Positions 28,453 to 33,625 of a DNA stretch of 38,768 nucleotides are shown here, one piece after another. This DNA comes from Gammaproteobacteria bacterium. Lineage in GTDB: Bacteria; Pseudomonadota; Gammaproteobacteria; Xanthomonadales; Wenzhouxiangellaceae. Location: contig PWJA01000272.1 in assembly GCA_003560975.1 (NCBI GenBank), positions 1 to 38,768 of the forward strand. The letters are read 5' to 3'. The notes under the pieces were generated by a model. It searched no databases. It saw only the letters and a program-made list of their open reading frames with translations, and had not been told where the DNA came from. Position 1 is the stretch's first letter; each line of letters opens with the position of its first letter. A program made the translations under genes and the position numbers.

Positions 28453-29115
28453 GTGAAGACCGAGCCGCGCACCGCAGCTTCGATGTTGCTGAGTCTCGGG
28501 CTGTTTGCTCTGGGCTTCGGGATGGCGTGGCTCAACGACTGGCGATTGCACGACGTGATCTGGGGATTCTGGATTACCTCCCTGGCGGTCGGGTACTTGA
28601 TGATCATCGGCATCCTGATTCACCAGGCCCGCCACCAGCAGCGCGATCTGGGCATGAGTATCGGTCAGGTCTGGGGAGGTGCGCTGTTTCTGCTGGCCTT
28701 CTTCAGCTTCCATTTCGGCTTTTTTCACTGGGGCCATGCGCAGTTCCTGACCGCTTTTCTGGACTGGCCGCCGGTGTCCGAGTTTTCTCTTGCGCTGATC
28801 CCCGAAATCCTGGCGCGTTACTGGCCGATCGTGCTCGCGGGACTGCTGTTTCGACTGTCCAATCTTGGCAAGTACATGAAACAGGGCTTCGAGGGTTTGA
28901 GCCGCAAGCAGGACGTGGGGCGCGCAGCCGGCGACGCCATGATGTTGCCCTATGCGGGGGTCATTCGCCTGCACCTGGCCATCTTCGGCCTGTTCGCCGG
29001 GGCCATGATCGGTTTGCCGGAACTGCTGATGTTCGCGCTGGCCTACGCCTGGTTCTTCCTGCCGTTCGATCTATCCGCCGGCAAGGCGGCGGATCGAGGA
29101 ACTCAGCAGGTCTGA
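28453..29115 (+). CDS. Multi-pass membrane protein, DUF6498-like
   Basis: A protein of 220 aa with about five hydrophobic segments (roughly 10-28, 35-55, 72-95, 112-132, 175-205). FFSFHFGFFHWGHAQFL and the end LPEILARYWPIVLAGLLFRL resemble the DUF6498 membrane family of unknown function. The start is uncertain: GTG 28453 sits 8 bases from the divergent cmoA ATG with no ribosome site, and ATG 28483 is an alternative. The last 45 bases overlap the 3' end of the PRPP-synthetase-like gene on the other strand. No function is proposed. Confidence 0.65.
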   Translation: MKTEPRTAASMLLSLGLFALGFGMAWLNDWRLHDVIWGFWITSLAVGYLMIIGILIHQARHQQRDLGMSIGQVWGGALFLLAFFSFHFGFFHWGHAQFLTAFLDWPPVSEFSLALIPEILARYWPIVLAGLLFRLSNLGKYMKQGFEGLSRKQDVGRAAGDAMMLPYAGVIRLHLAIFGLFAGAMIGLPELLMFALAYAWFFLPFDLSAGKAADRGTQQV

Positions 29116-29967
29116 CAGGTCGATCTCGGATTCGCTGGTTGGCACGCTGTTGGTGCAGACCAGCCGGACCACGCCGGCCTGGCGCAAGCGGTCGCGGGCC
29201 TGATCGTCATGCAAACCGTGGACCCCGATGACAATCGGCGCGGCCAGGCCCGCTTCGTTCAGGTGGCGCGCCGCCTGGACGATGGTGGACCCCGAGGAAA
29301 TGATGTCGTCGACCACAACCGGCTGACGCCCCGAGATTGGCTCCAGATCGGGCAGTACCATGCTGACCTCGCGGTCACCGTGGCGCGTTTTGCTGAACAC
29401 TCGCCAGGGCCAGCCGTGCGTCCCGGCGACGGCTCGGATCCACTGCTCGCTCTCCGCGTCCGGTCCGATCAGCACCGGCGCCTCGACGTGGGCCTCGATC
29501 CAGGCGGCGATCGCCGGAGCCGCACTCACCACCGACGATTCGAGGTCGTAAATCTCGTCCAGAGTGGCGTAGCGGTGAAGATGCGGATCCACGGTGACCA
29601 TCCAGTCGAAATGGCCCGATAACCAGCGCGCAAAGCTGCGCGAGGTCAGGGCTTCCCCGGGGCGGAAGCGCTGATCCTGGCGCATGTAGCAAAGATAGGG
29701 ACAGACCAGTCCGACCCGGGTGGCACCCAGGTCGCGGGCCAGGTCGGCGGCAAACAGGACCGCCGGGATGCGCGCATCGGGGTCGTTGAGGGTGGCAACG
29801 AGGATCGCGCTCGTGCCGTGCAGGTCGGAATCGATGCGCAGGTAGCTTTCGCCGTCGGGGAAACGCCGGTACACCAGCGCCTCCCAGGGCAGGTTCAGCC
29901 CTTTGCCCAGCCGCGCGGCCAGGTCTTCGTTGCCCGGCAGAGCGATCAGTCTCCCGGCACGCCTCAC
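29071..29967 (-). CDS. PRPP synthetase homologue, archaeal-like motifs
   Basis: A protein of 298 aa starting at GTG 29967, which overlaps the previous stop (GTGA). It shows the two-lobed PRPP-synthetase fold: FPDGESYLRI, PYLCYMRQDQRFRPGEALTS, the metal-binding TVDPHLHRYATL (in place of the bacterial DLH form), flexible-loop FSKTRHGDREVSM (Lys193, Arg195; KTR as in archaeal enzymes rather than KRR), and the PRPP loop VVVDDIISSGST (217-228). It should convert ribose 5-phosphate and ATP to PRPP and AMP. It is shorter than the housekeeping Prs (about 310-315 aa), so it is likely a second, specialised copy. Last gene of the coupled amidotransferase-nuclease-phosphorylase operon. Confidence 0.88.
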   Translation of the reverse strand: MRRAGRLIALPGNEDLAARLGKGLNLPWEALVYRRFPDGESYLRIDSDLHGTSAILVATLNDPDARIPAVLFAADLARDLGATRVGLVCPYLCYMRQDQRFRPGEALTSRSFARWLSGHFDWMVTVDPHLHRYATLDEIYDLESSVVSAAPAIAAWIEAHVEAPVLIGPDAESEQWIRAVAGTHGWPWRVFSKTRHGDREVSMVLPDLEPISGRQPVVVDDIISSGSTIVQAARHLNEAGLAAPIVIGVHGLHDDQARDRLRQAGVVRLVCTNSVPTSESEIDLSDLLSSSIRRLAGG

Positions 29968-31514
29968 GGCGCTTCCTCCCCGTCCGCCGCAATCGTGATG
30001 ATGTCGCCGTTGCTGCCGGCGAATTCACGCGCGTAGTTGAGCTCGCCCACGGTCTCGGCGTGAATGGTGTAGAGCGGTTGGCCGATCTCGACCGGGTCGC
30101 CCAGGTGTACATGCAGGTCCAGCCCGGCCGCGGCTGCGGCCGGCGCCCCGGCCAGTTTGGCGATGCGGGCCAGGCGGCGATTGTCGAACCGTCGCACCTG
30201 TCCCCTGCGAGCTGCCTCCACGACCACCTGCTGACAAGAAAGCGGAGGCTGGCTGAAGCGACCCTGGGCTTCGCAGATTGCGACGAACTTGGCCAGAGCC
30301 CGCCCGCTGTCGAGCGAACCTGCGGCGAGCGTCTTTCCACGGCCGGGTTCGGCCGCACCGCACAGCTCGAGCAGGGCCCCGGCGAGTTCGATCGAACGCT
30401 CGCGCAGATCGAGCGGCACGTTGGCGGAGTTGTCGAGTACGGCCAGGATATCGCGGGCTTCCAGGGCCGGTCCGATTCCGTTCCCGACCGGCTGGCTGCC
30501 GTCGGTCAGCAGAATCCGGGTCTCGACGCCGAACGCGTTCGCCACGGCCGCCAGCCGTCCGGCCAGTCGCTCGCCGTCGGCCCGGCTGCGGATCTTGGCG
30601 GTGGCTCCGACCGGAACATCCAGGACCAGGTGGCTGGAGCCGGCGGCAATTTTCTTCGACAGCACCGAGGCCACGAGCTGGCCTTCGGCATCGAGATCCA
30701 TTACCCGCGAAATCCGGATCAACACGTCGTCGACCGGGCTCAGGCGCACCGCGCCGCCCCACACCAGGCAGCCGTTTTCCTGTTCGACCACGCGCTGCAT
30801 GTCGTCGAGGTTGAGGTCGACCCGGGTCAGGGTTTCCATGGTGTCGGCCGTGCCGGCCGGGGACGTGATGGCGCGGGAGGAGGTTTTGGGCATCCACAGC
30901 CCGTTGGCGGCCACCATGGCAACGACCAGGGGCGTGGTGCGATGGCCGGGGAGGCCGCCGACGCAGTGCTTGTCGGCAATCGGCGAGCGTTTCCAGCGAA
31001 GACGATCCCCGACCTCGATCATGGCTTCGGTCAGATGCACCAGCTCGGCATCGTCGAGCGGCTGCGTCGCCATGATGGTCAGCAGCATGGCCAGGTGAAT
31101 GTCGGCGTAGCGCCCGGCCGCGACGTCTTCGATGATCGCCCGCATGCTATCGCGGCTGAAGCGCTCACCGAAGATGCGTCCCCGCAGTCCGCCGATGGAC
31201 TGCAGGGGCAGCGGATGGCGCAGATGAATGAGCTCGCCCTCCTCGACACCGAGCAGCTCCCAGGCCGAATCCGACAGGGCGGCCTCGTCGGCTTCCAGCA
31301 GATCGGAGTCGATCTGGTACAGCGTGGCGATGATCTGGCGGTCGCGCGCCTCGAGCTGCACCCGGGCGTGGGCGCTGAAGCCCTCGGAACGGCAGACCGG
31401 GCAGTCGCGACGGGTGATGATCACCGGTTCCTGGTGGGTATCCAGCGCGATCCGGCGCGCCTTGAGATTGTTCGAGGTGCGCGGACCGTTGCCGTTGTCT
31501 TCGGCTCCGGTCAT
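29964..31514 (-). CDS. Archaeal-type nucleoside/NMP phosphorylase (thymidine phosphorylase family)
   Basis: A protein of 516 aa from ATG 31514, which overlaps the nuclease stop (ATGA). The N-terminal domain (about 17-100) is the extra domain of archaeal AMP phosphorylase; it carries a CPVC pair (38-41). The catalytic part has DKHCVGGLPGHRTTPLVV (181-198), KTSSRAITSPAGTADTMETL (210-229), CLVWGGAVRLSPVDD and ASVLSKKIAAGSSH, nearly the archaeal wording and unlike short DeoA. The archaeal enzymes cleave AMP, CMP or UMP with phosphate to base and ribose 1,5-bisphosphate. Whether this one uses NMPs or nucleosides (thymidine) is open. No RuBisCO or ribose-1,5-bisphosphate isomerase lies in the window. 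Confidence 0.9.
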   Translation of the reverse strand: MTGAEDNGNGPRTSNNLKARRIALDTHQEPVIITRRDCPVCRSEGFSAHARVQLEARDRQIIATLYQIDSDLLEADEAALSDSAWELLGVEEGELIHLRHPLPLQSIGGLRGRIFGERFSRDSMRAIIEDVAAGRYADIHLAMLLTIMATQPLDDAELVHLTEAMIEVGDRLRWKRSPIADKHCVGGLPGHRTTPLVVAMVAANGLWMPKTSSRAITSPAGTADTMETLTRVDLNLDDMQRVVEQENGCLVWGGAVRLSPVDDVLIRISRVMDLDAEGQLVASVLSKKIAAGSSHLVLDVPVGATAKIRSRADGERLAGRLAAVANAFGVETRILLTDGSQPVGNGIGPALEARDILAVLDNSANVPLDLRERSIELAGALLELCGAAEPGRGKTLAAGSLDSGRALAKFVAICEAQGRFSQPPLSCQQVVVEAARRGQVRRFDNRRLARIAKLAGAPAAAAAGLDLHVHLGDPVEIGQPLYTIHAETVGELNYAREFAGSNGDIITIAADGEEAP

Positions 31515-32887
31515 GCCAGCTCGTACTCCTGCTCGGGGTCCGGCAGAATGGCCGGCCAGCGCAGCTCCTGTTGAACGCGCTCGGCCAGCGCGGCGGCGGC
31601 ACTGCTCTCGCCGTGGACCACGAACACGGCCTTGGGCGCGCGCGGCAGCTGCCCCAGCCATTCCAGCAGCTCGTCGCTGTCGGCGTGGGCCGAGAGCATG
31701 TCCAGGTTTTCCACACTGGCTCGGACCGGCCAGTCCTCGCCGTGGATCCGAACCTGCTCGGCGCCGTTGAGCAGTTGCTCGCCGCGCGTGCCCCCGGCCT
31801 GGTAACCGGAAAACAGGATCGTGTGGCGGGGATCACCGAGATAGACTTTCAGGTGGTGCAGTACCCGACCTCCGGTTGCCATGCCGCTACCGGCGATGAT
31901 GATCTTGGGCATGGGGTCGTGATCGAGACGGCGCGAGGCCTCGGCGTCGTGCACGTACCGCGGCAGCGCGCAGGCCGCCTCGGCCTCGGCCGGGCTGAGG
32001 TGGTGATCTTCCGGATGGTTGGCGAACACTTCCGTGGCGTTGATGGCCAGCGGGCTGTCCAGAAACACCGGCACCCTGGGAATCCGGCGCGCGTGCTGCA
32101 GGCGGCGAAGGTGGTGCAGGAGGAGCTGGGTCCGGCCCACCGCGAAGGCCGGAACGATGACGGTCCCTCCGCGGCTGACCGTCTCGCGAATGATTCGGGC
32201 CAGACGCTCTTCCGGATCCTCGCGCGAACGCCGCCGATCGCCGTAGGTGGATTCGATGACCACGTAGTCGGCTTCGGGTGGCGCTTGGGGCGGGGCCATG
32301 GTGGCGCTGTCGGACTGGCCCAGATCACCGCTGAACAACACCCGGCTCGATTGGCATTGGACCAGGATGCTGGCCGCACCGAGGATGTGCCCGGCGCGGC
32401 TGAAGGTGGCCGTGATGCCCTCGGCCAGCGCCAGCGGCTGCCCGAACGGGCAGCTCTGGAACTGTTCCAGACAACGGTTGGCGTCGGCCTGGGTATACAA
32501 GGGGCGGGCGGGATGGTGCCGGGTATAGCCGTACCGGTTGGCGCGCGCCGCATCCTTTTCCTGGATGAAGCCCGAATCGGGCAACAGGTAGCGACACAAC
32601 TCACGCGTGGCCCGGGTTGCGTGAATGGGCCCGGTATAGCCATCTCGGCACAAGACCGGCAGAAAGCCGGAATGATCGAGGTGCGCATGGGTCAGGAGCA
32701 CGCCGGACAGCGCGCCGGGATCGAAGCCGGGTTCGGCCCAGTTGCGCAGGCGGAGGTGCTTGAAACCCTGAAAGAGCCCGCAATCGATCAGGACGCGCCG
32801 ATCACCGGCGCGCAGCAGGAACCGCGACCCGGTGACGGTGTCGACGGCGCCGTGAAACCTCAATCGCAGCCCGGGGGAGTCCGACAT
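31511..32887 (-). CDS. MBL-fold beta-CASP nuclease (CPSF/Ysh1-like)
   Basis: A protein of 458 aa. The metallo-beta-lactamase metal site is complete: THAHLDH (His67, His69, Asp71, His72), His167 (AGHILGAAS), Asp188 (SGDLG). The beta-CASP motifs follow: A Glu212 (ESTYGD), B His401 (LSAHAD), C His425 (VVHGES). This matches COG1236-type RNA-processing nucleases such as CPSF-73 and its bacterial relatives, so single-stranded RNA cleavage is the expected reaction. It begins 3 bases after the amidotransferase stop and overlaps the phosphorylase start by 4 bases. The family is common in archaea; the real RNA target here is unknown. Confidence 0.92.
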   Translation of the reverse strand: MSDSPGLRLRFHGAVDTVTGSRFLLRAGDRRVLIDCGLFQGFKHLRLRNWAEPGFDPGALSGVLLTHAHLDHSGFLPVLCRDGYTGPIHATRATRELCRYLLPDSGFIQEKDAARANRYGYTRHHPARPLYTQADANRCLEQFQSCPFGQPLALAEGITATFSRAGHILGAASILVQCQSSRVLFSGDLGQSDSATMAPPQAPPEADYVVIESTYGDRRRSREDPEERLARIIRETVSRGGTVIVPAFAVGRTQLLLHHLRRLQHARRIPRVPVFLDSPLAINATEVFANHPEDHHLSPAEAEAACALPRYVHDAEASRRLDHDPMPKIIIAGSGMATGGRVLHHLKVYLGDPRHTILFSGYQAGGTRGEQLLNGAEQVRIHGEDWPVRASVENLDMLSAHADSDELLEWLGQLPRAPKAVFVVHGESSAAAALAERVQQELRWPAILPDPEQEYELA

Positions 32888-32890
32888 CCT

Positions 32891-33625
32891 TCAGCTGCCC
32901 GCCCGGTCGGCCTGCTCGACCAGCTCGGCGAAGCGCTGCATGACCTGCTTGCCTTCCGGCGTCGGTCGCAGCGATTCCAGCACCCGGTCGGCGTAGATTC
33001 CTTCACCGGTCAGCACCGAGCGCCGCGAGCGGATGTAGCAGTCCATGATGTCGACGTCGAACTCCGGATGAAACTGCAAGCCCCAGCTGCGATTGCCGAA
33101 GTACAGGGCGTGATGATCATCACCCTGCCCACGAGCAATGACCCGCGCTTCCTTCGGCGGCGCCAGCACGGCTTCCACGTGGGTGGTCTGGAAATACCCA
33201 CCCGGCGTGAACGGGCCCAGCAGGGCATCGTTGTGGTCGACGATTTCGACTTCCAGCGAACCCATGCGGCGGCCATGGGGGTTGGGGCCGACCGTTCCGC
33301 CCAGGGCATGGGCCAGCAGCTGATGGCCATAGCAGACGCCGAGCATGGGCAGACCAACCGCGTGCGCGTCGGCCAGCCAGGCGGCGCTTTGTTCCGACCA
33401 CTCGTGGCGGTGCGAGACCATGGCCGGAGAGCCGGTGATGATGGCCCCGGCCAGCCCGTCGCGGGTTGCCGGGAGTCGTTCACCCTGGTGAACGCTGACG
33501 ACGCGAAAATCAAATCGATCCGAACCGATGCTGTTGATGAACCACTGGTCGAAGTCGCCAAAGCGCTCGCCGGCCTCTCGGACGCTCGAACCGGTCTTGA
33601 TGATCAGCAGCGAAGATCTTTGCAT
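32891..33625 (-). CDS. Class I glutamine amidotransferase (GMP synthase-like)
   Basis: A protein of 244 aa. The triad is visible: Cys98 in GVCYGHQLLA, His186 and Glu188 in LQFHPEFD. It is a stand-alone GATase1 domain of the GuaA-amidotransferase-like group (YfeJ type). These release ammonia from glutamine or hydrolyse gamma-glutamyl compounds; no synthase partner is fused or adjacent. It is the first gene of the four-gene leftward operon, 3 bases before the nuclease gene, and divergent from glyQ across about 130 bases. Confidence 0.88.
   Translation of the reverse strand: MQRSSLLIIKTGSSVREAGERFGDFDQWFINSIGSDRFDFRVVSVHQGERLPATRDGLAGAIITGSPAMVSHRHEWSEQSAAWLADAHAVGLPMLGVCYGHQLLAHALGGTVGPNPHGRRMGSLEVEIVDHNDALLGPFTPGGYFQTTHVEAVLAPPKEARVIARGQGDDHHALYFGNRSWGLQFHPEFDVDIMDCYIRSRRSVLTGEGIYADRVLESLRPTPEGKQVMQRFAELVEQADRAGS

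Follow-up and report, generated by a model that had tools for sequence, protein, structure and literature searches.

A predicted archaeal-type nucleoside monophosphate (NMP) phosphorylase is encoded directly beside a paralogue of phosphoribosyl pyrophosphate (PRPP) synthetase, here called the PRPPS paralogue, in a 38,768-nucleotide stretch of DNA from a gammaproteobacterium of the Wenzhouxiangellaceae (contig PWJA01000272.1). This whole stretch, referred to as the window, makes up contig C16 in a genome of 3.08 Mb. An earlier note on it had described four leftward genes as one operon, comprising an amidotransferase, a beta-CASP nuclease, the phosphorylase and the PRPP-synthetase homologue, which would degrade RNA and return the sugar phosphate to PRPP. 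The real unit is the phosphorylase with the PRPPS paralogue, a pairing that is strong and yet not obligate. With a probability of roughly 0.4, this core is proposed to be a pathway of two enzymes that handles nucleotide ribose, in which NMPs would be converted to ribose 1,5-bisphosphate (R15P) and R15P would be consumed by the paralogue, likeliest with the formation of ribose 5-phosphate (R5P) and ADP.

Co-occurrence and spread of the two-gene core

A single set of 398 Pseudomonadota genomes was surveyed for both genes. Of these, 45 have the phosphorylase (44 above the cut-off) and 41 have the PRPPS paralogue (40 above it); 40 genomes carry both, five the phosphorylase alone and one the paralogue alone (Fisher p 3e-48, computed with no phylogenetic correction). 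Gene order was followed in 133 fetched stretches, made up of 53 stretches and a named set of 80, the latter holding the 80 best among at least 586 matches and hence leaning towards the window's protein; two loci (L163 = L089, L207 = L100) belong to both sets. All 115 phosphorylase-paralogue pairs found are on the same strand, 97 of them within 250 bp. Some of the loci are near-copies, and thinning to 117 loci that are <90% identical leaves 101 with the pair, again with every pair on the same strand (101/101) and 87 within 250 bp. A PRPPS-like gene is present in 70 of the 80 named stretches by tblastn, which clustering of open reading frames (ORFs) had undercounted (67/80).

The coupling of an archaeal-type phosphorylase to a PRPP-synthetase homologue, as read in the earlier note, agrees with this co-occurrence and with the family placement of the proteins. 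Its suggestion that the arrangement extends past close relatives is likewise borne out by the neighbourhood search, as the named set covers Alpha-, Beta- and Gammaproteobacteria, Bacteroidota and one metagenome-assembled genome (MAG) of the Verrucomicrobia. Among these 80 best matches, the nearest relatives with a name are MAGs of Wenzhouxiangella, with phosphorylase identities of 67-79%. The cluster is widespread in bacteria and mislabelled in databases.

Identically ordered clusters whose phosphorylases are >99% identical were observed in Pseudomonas rhodesiae and several Burkholderiales (L196, L199, L200, L201, L203, and L204). These also hold genes for DUF6629, a 2-hydroxyacid dehydrogenase, a UbiB-like kinase, a type-II glyceraldehyde-3-phosphate dehydrogenase (GAPDH), and MgtC, and are perhaps a recently moved island, or contamination.

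Family placement of the phosphorylase

The tree, the N-terminal domain and the phosphate-binding signature assign the phosphorylase, as far as a prediction from sequence can, to the archaeal-type NMP phosphorylases. It passes the NCBI cut-offs of PRK04350 (639.8 vs 434 bits) and TIGR02645 (558.7 vs 434.6 bits), which bear the names thymidine phosphorylase and putative thymidine phosphorylase, respectively. The four models of true thymidine or pyrimidine phosphorylases that it matched were all below their cut-offs (196.6/269, 180.4/409, 142.2/570.7, and 133.9/559 bits). The best solved relative is the AMP phosphorylase of T. kodakarensis (E 1e-89), while the best pyrimidine phosphorylase reaches 2e-33. 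An AlphaFold model of the protein (mean pLDDT 91.1) aligns over residues 15-509 with residues 1-493 of the T. kodakarensis enzyme 4ga5 (Z 48.7, 488 residues, 1.7 A). The extra N-terminal domain noted earlier is real, being covered by this alignment; the listed thymidine and pyrimidine phosphorylase structures align with the model only from residue 102-105 on.

Residues 209-218 read PKTSSRAITS. The corresponding phosphate-binding stretch, PKTSSRA[IV]TS, is common to the archaeal and PRPPS-linked proteins and, nearly throughout, to those fused to PhnN; thymidine phosphorylases instead carry PMISGRGLGH. In a tree of 42 rows, for which 24 of the 67 PRPPS-linked rows were drawn at random, the thymidine phosphorylases split from all others at 100/100. 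The types linked to PRPPS (99/98) and fused to PhnN (100/100) are together on the other side with two archaeal rows (92/64), so that the comparison with archaeal homologues recommended in the earlier note places these with the phosphorylase. The window's genome has separate matches of the thymidine-phosphorylase kind on C209 and of the TrpD kind on C110, named by score and length.

The altered loop of the PRPPS paralogue

The most distinctive feature of the locus, which the earlier note overlooked, is the altered pyrophosphate (PPi) loop of the PRPPS paralogue. This protein exceeds the PRK07199 cut-off (371.5 vs 322 bits) and has the motifs FPDGE, RQD, DPH, KTR, and DDIISSG. It keeps 13 catalytic residues that bind ATP, metal and R5P (F36, D38, E40, R96, Q97, D98, H129, D170, K193, R195, D220, D221, and T228), these being all the catalytic positions that could be named. 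Its PPi loop, which we take to be the part that cradles the transferred pyrophosphate and touches the terminal phosphate, is GPDAES, with E172 in place of an otherwise invariant glycine, after the metal-binding Asp170. Position 172 is Glu in 62/62 aligned members and Gly in 30/30 class I and 3/3 archaeal enzymes, and each of the 112 members whose match extends far enough, 108 of them distinct, has the loop motif GPD-x-E-[SA]. R132, present in 62/62 members, and W176, in 98%, are nearly as subfamily-specific as E172. Compared with PRPP synthetases, the paralogue is alike in fold (3mbi, Z 34.6) and catalytic residues and differs in the loop, where D-x-G-G/A has become D-x-E-S, as well as in the subfamily-typical R132 and W176. 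The replacement of DLH by DPH, emphasised earlier, is indeed present but is not unusual, as two of the three archaeal PRPP synthetases compared also have PH there.

A separate canonical PRPP synthetase was found in 40/40 sampled genomes, nine of them with the module; that of the window's genome is on C135. For the E. coli enzyme, the available part of one account describes binding of R5P by Asp170 via magnesium and joint occupation of the active site by ADP and R5P (PMC9232217). A preprint on PRPS classes, as far as its accessible text goes, may include the present subfamily among its new classes (PMC13252144).

PhnN fusions and the fate of ribose 1,5-bisphosphate

PhnN phosphorylates R15P to PRPP, according to the available text of PMC9700705. 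In four of the five phosphorylase-only survey genomes (G344, G401, G475, and G485) a PhnN domain forms the N-terminus of the phosphorylase; the fifth, G350, was left out of this count, its match holding a stop. The same fusion occurs in two plasmid records picked for their phnN label, and the fused PhnN domains score 164-185 bits against a cut-off of 156. In these fusions PhnN occupies the partner's place, though unlike the PRPPS paralogue it is a kinase of another protein family, and makes PRPP. The nadC gene is present in all four fused survey stretches and adjoins both plasmid fusions. Genes for uptake systems, or for the binding proteins of such systems, are also neighbours of the fusions, which are possibly a salvage path from nucleotides or nicotinic acid mononucleotide to PRPP.

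Since PhnN is an R15P kinase, its fusion to the phosphorylase strongly, if indirectly, indicates R15P as the product of this type of phosphorylase. The earlier note's choice of R15P as the intermediate is supported by the fusion together with the tree, the N-terminal domain and the signature, and the conversion of NMP into R15P by the phosphorylase is considered likely.

The absence of an R15P isomerase, remarked on earlier for the neighbourhood of the operon, extends to all 45 phosphorylase genomes, the window's own and 44 others, none of which has a match over the TIGR00511 cut-off; 23 weaker matches (139-187 vs 314 bits) are taken for MtnA. PhnN is over its cut-off in only 9/40 paralogue genomes. 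As 31/40 have neither PhnN nor the isomerase over the cut-offs, their R15P needs another consumer, for which the linked PRPPS paralogue is the natural candidate. It is somewhat more probable than otherwise that the paralogue acts on R15P. The RuBisCO profile PF00016 matched in 22/45 genomes, with 52.7 bits over a partial range in that of the window (G000:C176:24274-24765).

The proposed route and its alternatives

In the proposed route, the phosphorylase would use phosphate to cleave 5'-NMPs into the free base and R15P, and the paralogue, with its loop for the terminal phosphate changed, would consume R15P. The likeliest second step would be transfer of the C1 phosphate to AMP (R15P + AMP = R5P + ADP), that is, the chemistry of PRPP synthetase reversed with one phosphate fewer. 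If the room for the terminal phosphate is lost, the reaction PRPP + AMP = R5P + ATP would become the one proposed here; R5P and ADP as the products are suggested tentatively, at somewhat less than even odds. R5P would enter the pentose-phosphate pathway, in many hosts via a neighbouring phosphoketolase and acetate kinase, and the beta-CASP enzyme would plausibly supply NMPs from RNA.

The closest known system is the archaeal NMP (AMP) phosphorylase and pentose bisphosphate pathway, exemplified by T. kodakarensis TK0352. The two share the phosphorylase fold with the N-terminal domain, the PKTSSRAxTS stretch and the presumed product R15P, whereas the bacterial module has no R15P isomerase over the cut-off and the PRPPS paralogue stands in the isomerase's place. 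The module is best read as a bacterial version of the NMP shunt of archaea that does without the isomerase. PRPP is one of two live options for its product, and we lean to R5P and ADP.

Several observations weigh against the proposed route. The cut-off of the AMP phosphorylase equivalog TIGR03327 is not reached (442.3 vs 535 bits), the contact of the PPi loop with the terminal phosphate is presumed, and R15P, as the fused PhnN shows, can be routed to PRPP as well. Unfused phosphorylases without a neighbouring paralogue also exist. Of 12 such genomes checked, three carry the paralogue elsewhere and nine have none at the cut-off, one of these nine loci being cut at a contig end and several of the genomes being MAGs. 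PhnN was present in one of eight paralogue-less unfused genomes checked, and two genomes with neither are 99 and 100% complete; likewise, tblastn of the fetched unfused paralogue-less loci gave no PhnN match. The phosphoketolase is absent from the window's genome, the neighbouring phosphoketolases are mostly of a divergent kind far below the NCBI cut-offs, and genome-wide enrichment is modest (12/40 with the module vs 48/352, p 0.011). Finally, the open-licence literature yielded no measured enzyme activity for any bacterial member.

The main rival, rather unlikely in our estimate, is the earlier note's route, in which R15P is likewise made from NMPs and the paralogue then makes PRPP for the synthesis of nucleotides and cofactors, with R15P as its substrate or, acting like an ordinary PRPP synthetase, with R5P. 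It would account for the retention of every nameable catalytic residue and for the fusion of the phosphorylase, in paralogue-less genomes, to an enzyme that turns R15P into PRPP beside nadC, a PRPP user. However, PRPP formation from R15P would need transfer onto the C1 phosphate, a geometry unlike that of PRPP synthetase, the loop is altered in 112/112 members, and the sampled genomes already have a canonical PRPP synthetase. Moreover, no phosphoribosyltransferase appeared among the profile-annotated neighbours of part of the PRPPS-linked loci, the sole one, nadC, going with the PhnN-fused type. The loop change, the separate canonical enzyme and the phosphoketolase, acetate kinase and GAPDH neighbours fit R5P and sugar catabolism better than PRPP, although they are not decisive.

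Phosphorylases are generally reversible, and the same genes and residues could also run in the synthetic direction, with the paralogue making R15P from R5P and ADP and the phosphorylase joining R15P to a base in a PRPP-independent salvage. We regard this as improbable, given that the neighbouring genes for the nuclease, phosphoketolase, acetate kinase and GAPDH indicate a catabolic role. The rise of the Bradyrhizobium products in micro-oxia, reported in the available part of PMC6515984, would not suggest a growth demand either. An altered loop would suit a paralogue that has lost catalysis and serves the canonical PRPP synthetase as a regulatory partner, and the accessible text of PMC13252144 describes PRPS pseudoenzymes as common in eukaryotes; this too has little probability, as the flexible-loop, metal and K-x-R residues are retained and the paralogue is linked to the phosphorylase and not to prs. 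Least probable is that the database name is right and a thymidine or pyrimidine-nucleoside phosphorylase is merely co-expressed with the other genes, as many plasmid records annotated 'thymidine phosphorylase family protein' would have it, given the sub-cut-off scores with all four true models, the separate canonical-kind match on C209, the phosphate-binding stretch that differs throughout, and the same misannotation once borne by the T. kodakarensis enzyme (PMC8376864, in the part available).

If R5P and ADP are the products, the paralogue may be an unrecognised R15P:AMP phosphotransferase that saves the energy of the NMP glycosidic bond as ADP. The core would then be a second, isomerase-free pentose bisphosphate route fermenting the ribose of RNA, in many hosts via the divergent phosphoketolase. 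This wider picture is offered still more tentatively than the products themselves, and no proposal of the pathway was found in the open-licence literature. Were it true, R15P metabolism would be mainstream bacterial physiology and no longer an archaeal speciality with a phosphonate side reaction. This reading would assign a function to two large families that now carry wrong names, and it provides a directly testable pair of enzymes.

Gene order in the window and optional partners

All ORFs and coordinates of the four leftward genes (29071-33625), with junctions of +3, -4, and -4 bases, were reproduced, and the motifs of the nuclease, the amidotransferase and the PRPP-synthetase homologue were located in the translations. 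The +3 junction is the gap between the amidotransferase and nuclease genes (Table 1).

Table 1. Genes and junctions of the window, and loci of related gene arrangements.
Feature	Location	Strand	Description
GATase	32891..33625	-	class-I glutamine amidotransferase (PRK09065), 244 aa
Nuclease homologue	31511..32887	-	beta-CASP metallo-beta-lactamase (MBL), RMMBL domain, 458 aa
Phosphorylase	29964..31514	-	NMP-phosphorylase-like protein, PRK04350/TIGR02645, 516 aa
PRPPS paralogue	29071..29967	-	PRK07199, 298 aa, GTG start
Nuclease-phosphorylase junction	31511..31514	-	ATGA stop/start overlap
Phosphorylase-paralogue junction	29964..29967	-	GTGA stop/start overlap
PhnN-phosphorylase fusions	L096, L097, L098, L099		
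PhnN-phosphorylase fusion	L212:5242-7392		labelled only 'phnN'
PhnN-phosphorylase fusion	L213:5224-7347		labelled only 'phnN'
Beta-CASP gene with divergent phosphoketolase	L118, L119, L120, L122, L124, L125, L126		no phosphorylase or PRPPS paralogue

The nuclease has MBL, Beta-Casp and RMMBL domains and the catalytic motifs HAHLDH (67), AGH (165), SGD (186), motif A (E212), motif B (GRTQ, 251), and motif C (SAHAD, 399). It remains under the equivalog cut-offs of aCPSF1 (263.8 vs 580 bits) and Cas14 (371 vs 800 bits). With a beta-CASP gene in 58/80 named and 30/53 other stretches, the nuclease is a common but optional partner. The amidotransferase passes the PRK09065 cut-off (255.1 vs 205 bits) and contains GVCYGHQ and QFHPE. 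Its gene was found in 4/80 named stretches, all Wenzhouxiangella, and in 9/53 others, all of the window's family. Its inclusion in the unit by the earlier note does not hold, as it is present in 9/10 other loci of the window's family and in 0/43 outside, which rules it out of the core and makes it a lineage-specific passenger limited to that family. On the opposite side of the operon, a gene for a DUF6498 membrane protein at 28453-29115 (+) converges on that of the PRPPS paralogue, and the 3' ends of the two share 45 bases.

Neighbouring genes and response to oxygen

A phosphoketolase homologue is found in 22/80 named and 8/53 other stretches, with only 62/398 genomes holding one at all. Acetate kinase is found in 9/80 and 5/53 stretches and type-II GAPDH in 11 and 2, respectively. 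Among the 117 thinned loci the counts are 24 for phosphoketolase, 11 for acetate kinase, and 6 for GAPDH, the GAPDH count before thinning being partly that of one near-identical cluster. The phosphoketolase as an obligate partner was ruled out by its absence from the window's genome. In an Agrobacterium plasmid the order is P-type ATPase, PRPPS paralogue, phosphoketolase homologue, MBL, and phosphorylase, the phosphoketolase homologue there being labelled an epimerase.

An operon similar by annotation, bll3117-bll3116-bll3115 of Bradyrhizobium diazoefficiens, encodes a protein of the thymidine phosphorylase family, a ribose-phosphate pyrophosphokinase and an MBL protein; its gene order differs from that of the window, and the window's operon start has no FNR-type box. 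In the available portions of the two papers on it, the operon is a predicted one, bll3115 and bll3117 are FixK2-dependent with a FixK2 motif before bll3117 (PMC9104804), all three proteins are up in micro-oxia (PMC6515984), and no function is assigned. A pair of phosphoketolase and acetate/propionate-family kinase also stands in the FixK2 table of the former, and fermentation of ribose by the proposed route would offer an explanation for the joint FixK2 dependence of the operon and this pair, as listed there (PMC9104804). Oxygen control as a general property was rejected, as it rests on the Bradyrhizobium papers and FNR boxes are not enriched: exact FNR-type boxes occur at the operon start of 3/126 loci against 1.27 expected, and looser sites (9 or 10 of 10 matches) in 9/54 loci against about 5 expected from the whole-loci rate. 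No Rfam match was obtained in the window at gathering scores.

The divergent phosphoketolase family may use a different substrate, given its scores far below the NCBI cut-offs. At seven of nine fetched loci of this family from genomes without the phosphorylase, a beta-CASP gene adjoins on the opposite strand, in one case in two pieces. Both PA3613 (phosphoketolase) and PA3614 (MBL superfamily) of P. aeruginosa appear in a table of anoxia-responsive regulon genes in the accessible part of PMC8575079. One phosphoketolase homologue (L214:4287-6656) is annotated 'xylulose 5-phosphate 3-epimerase'.

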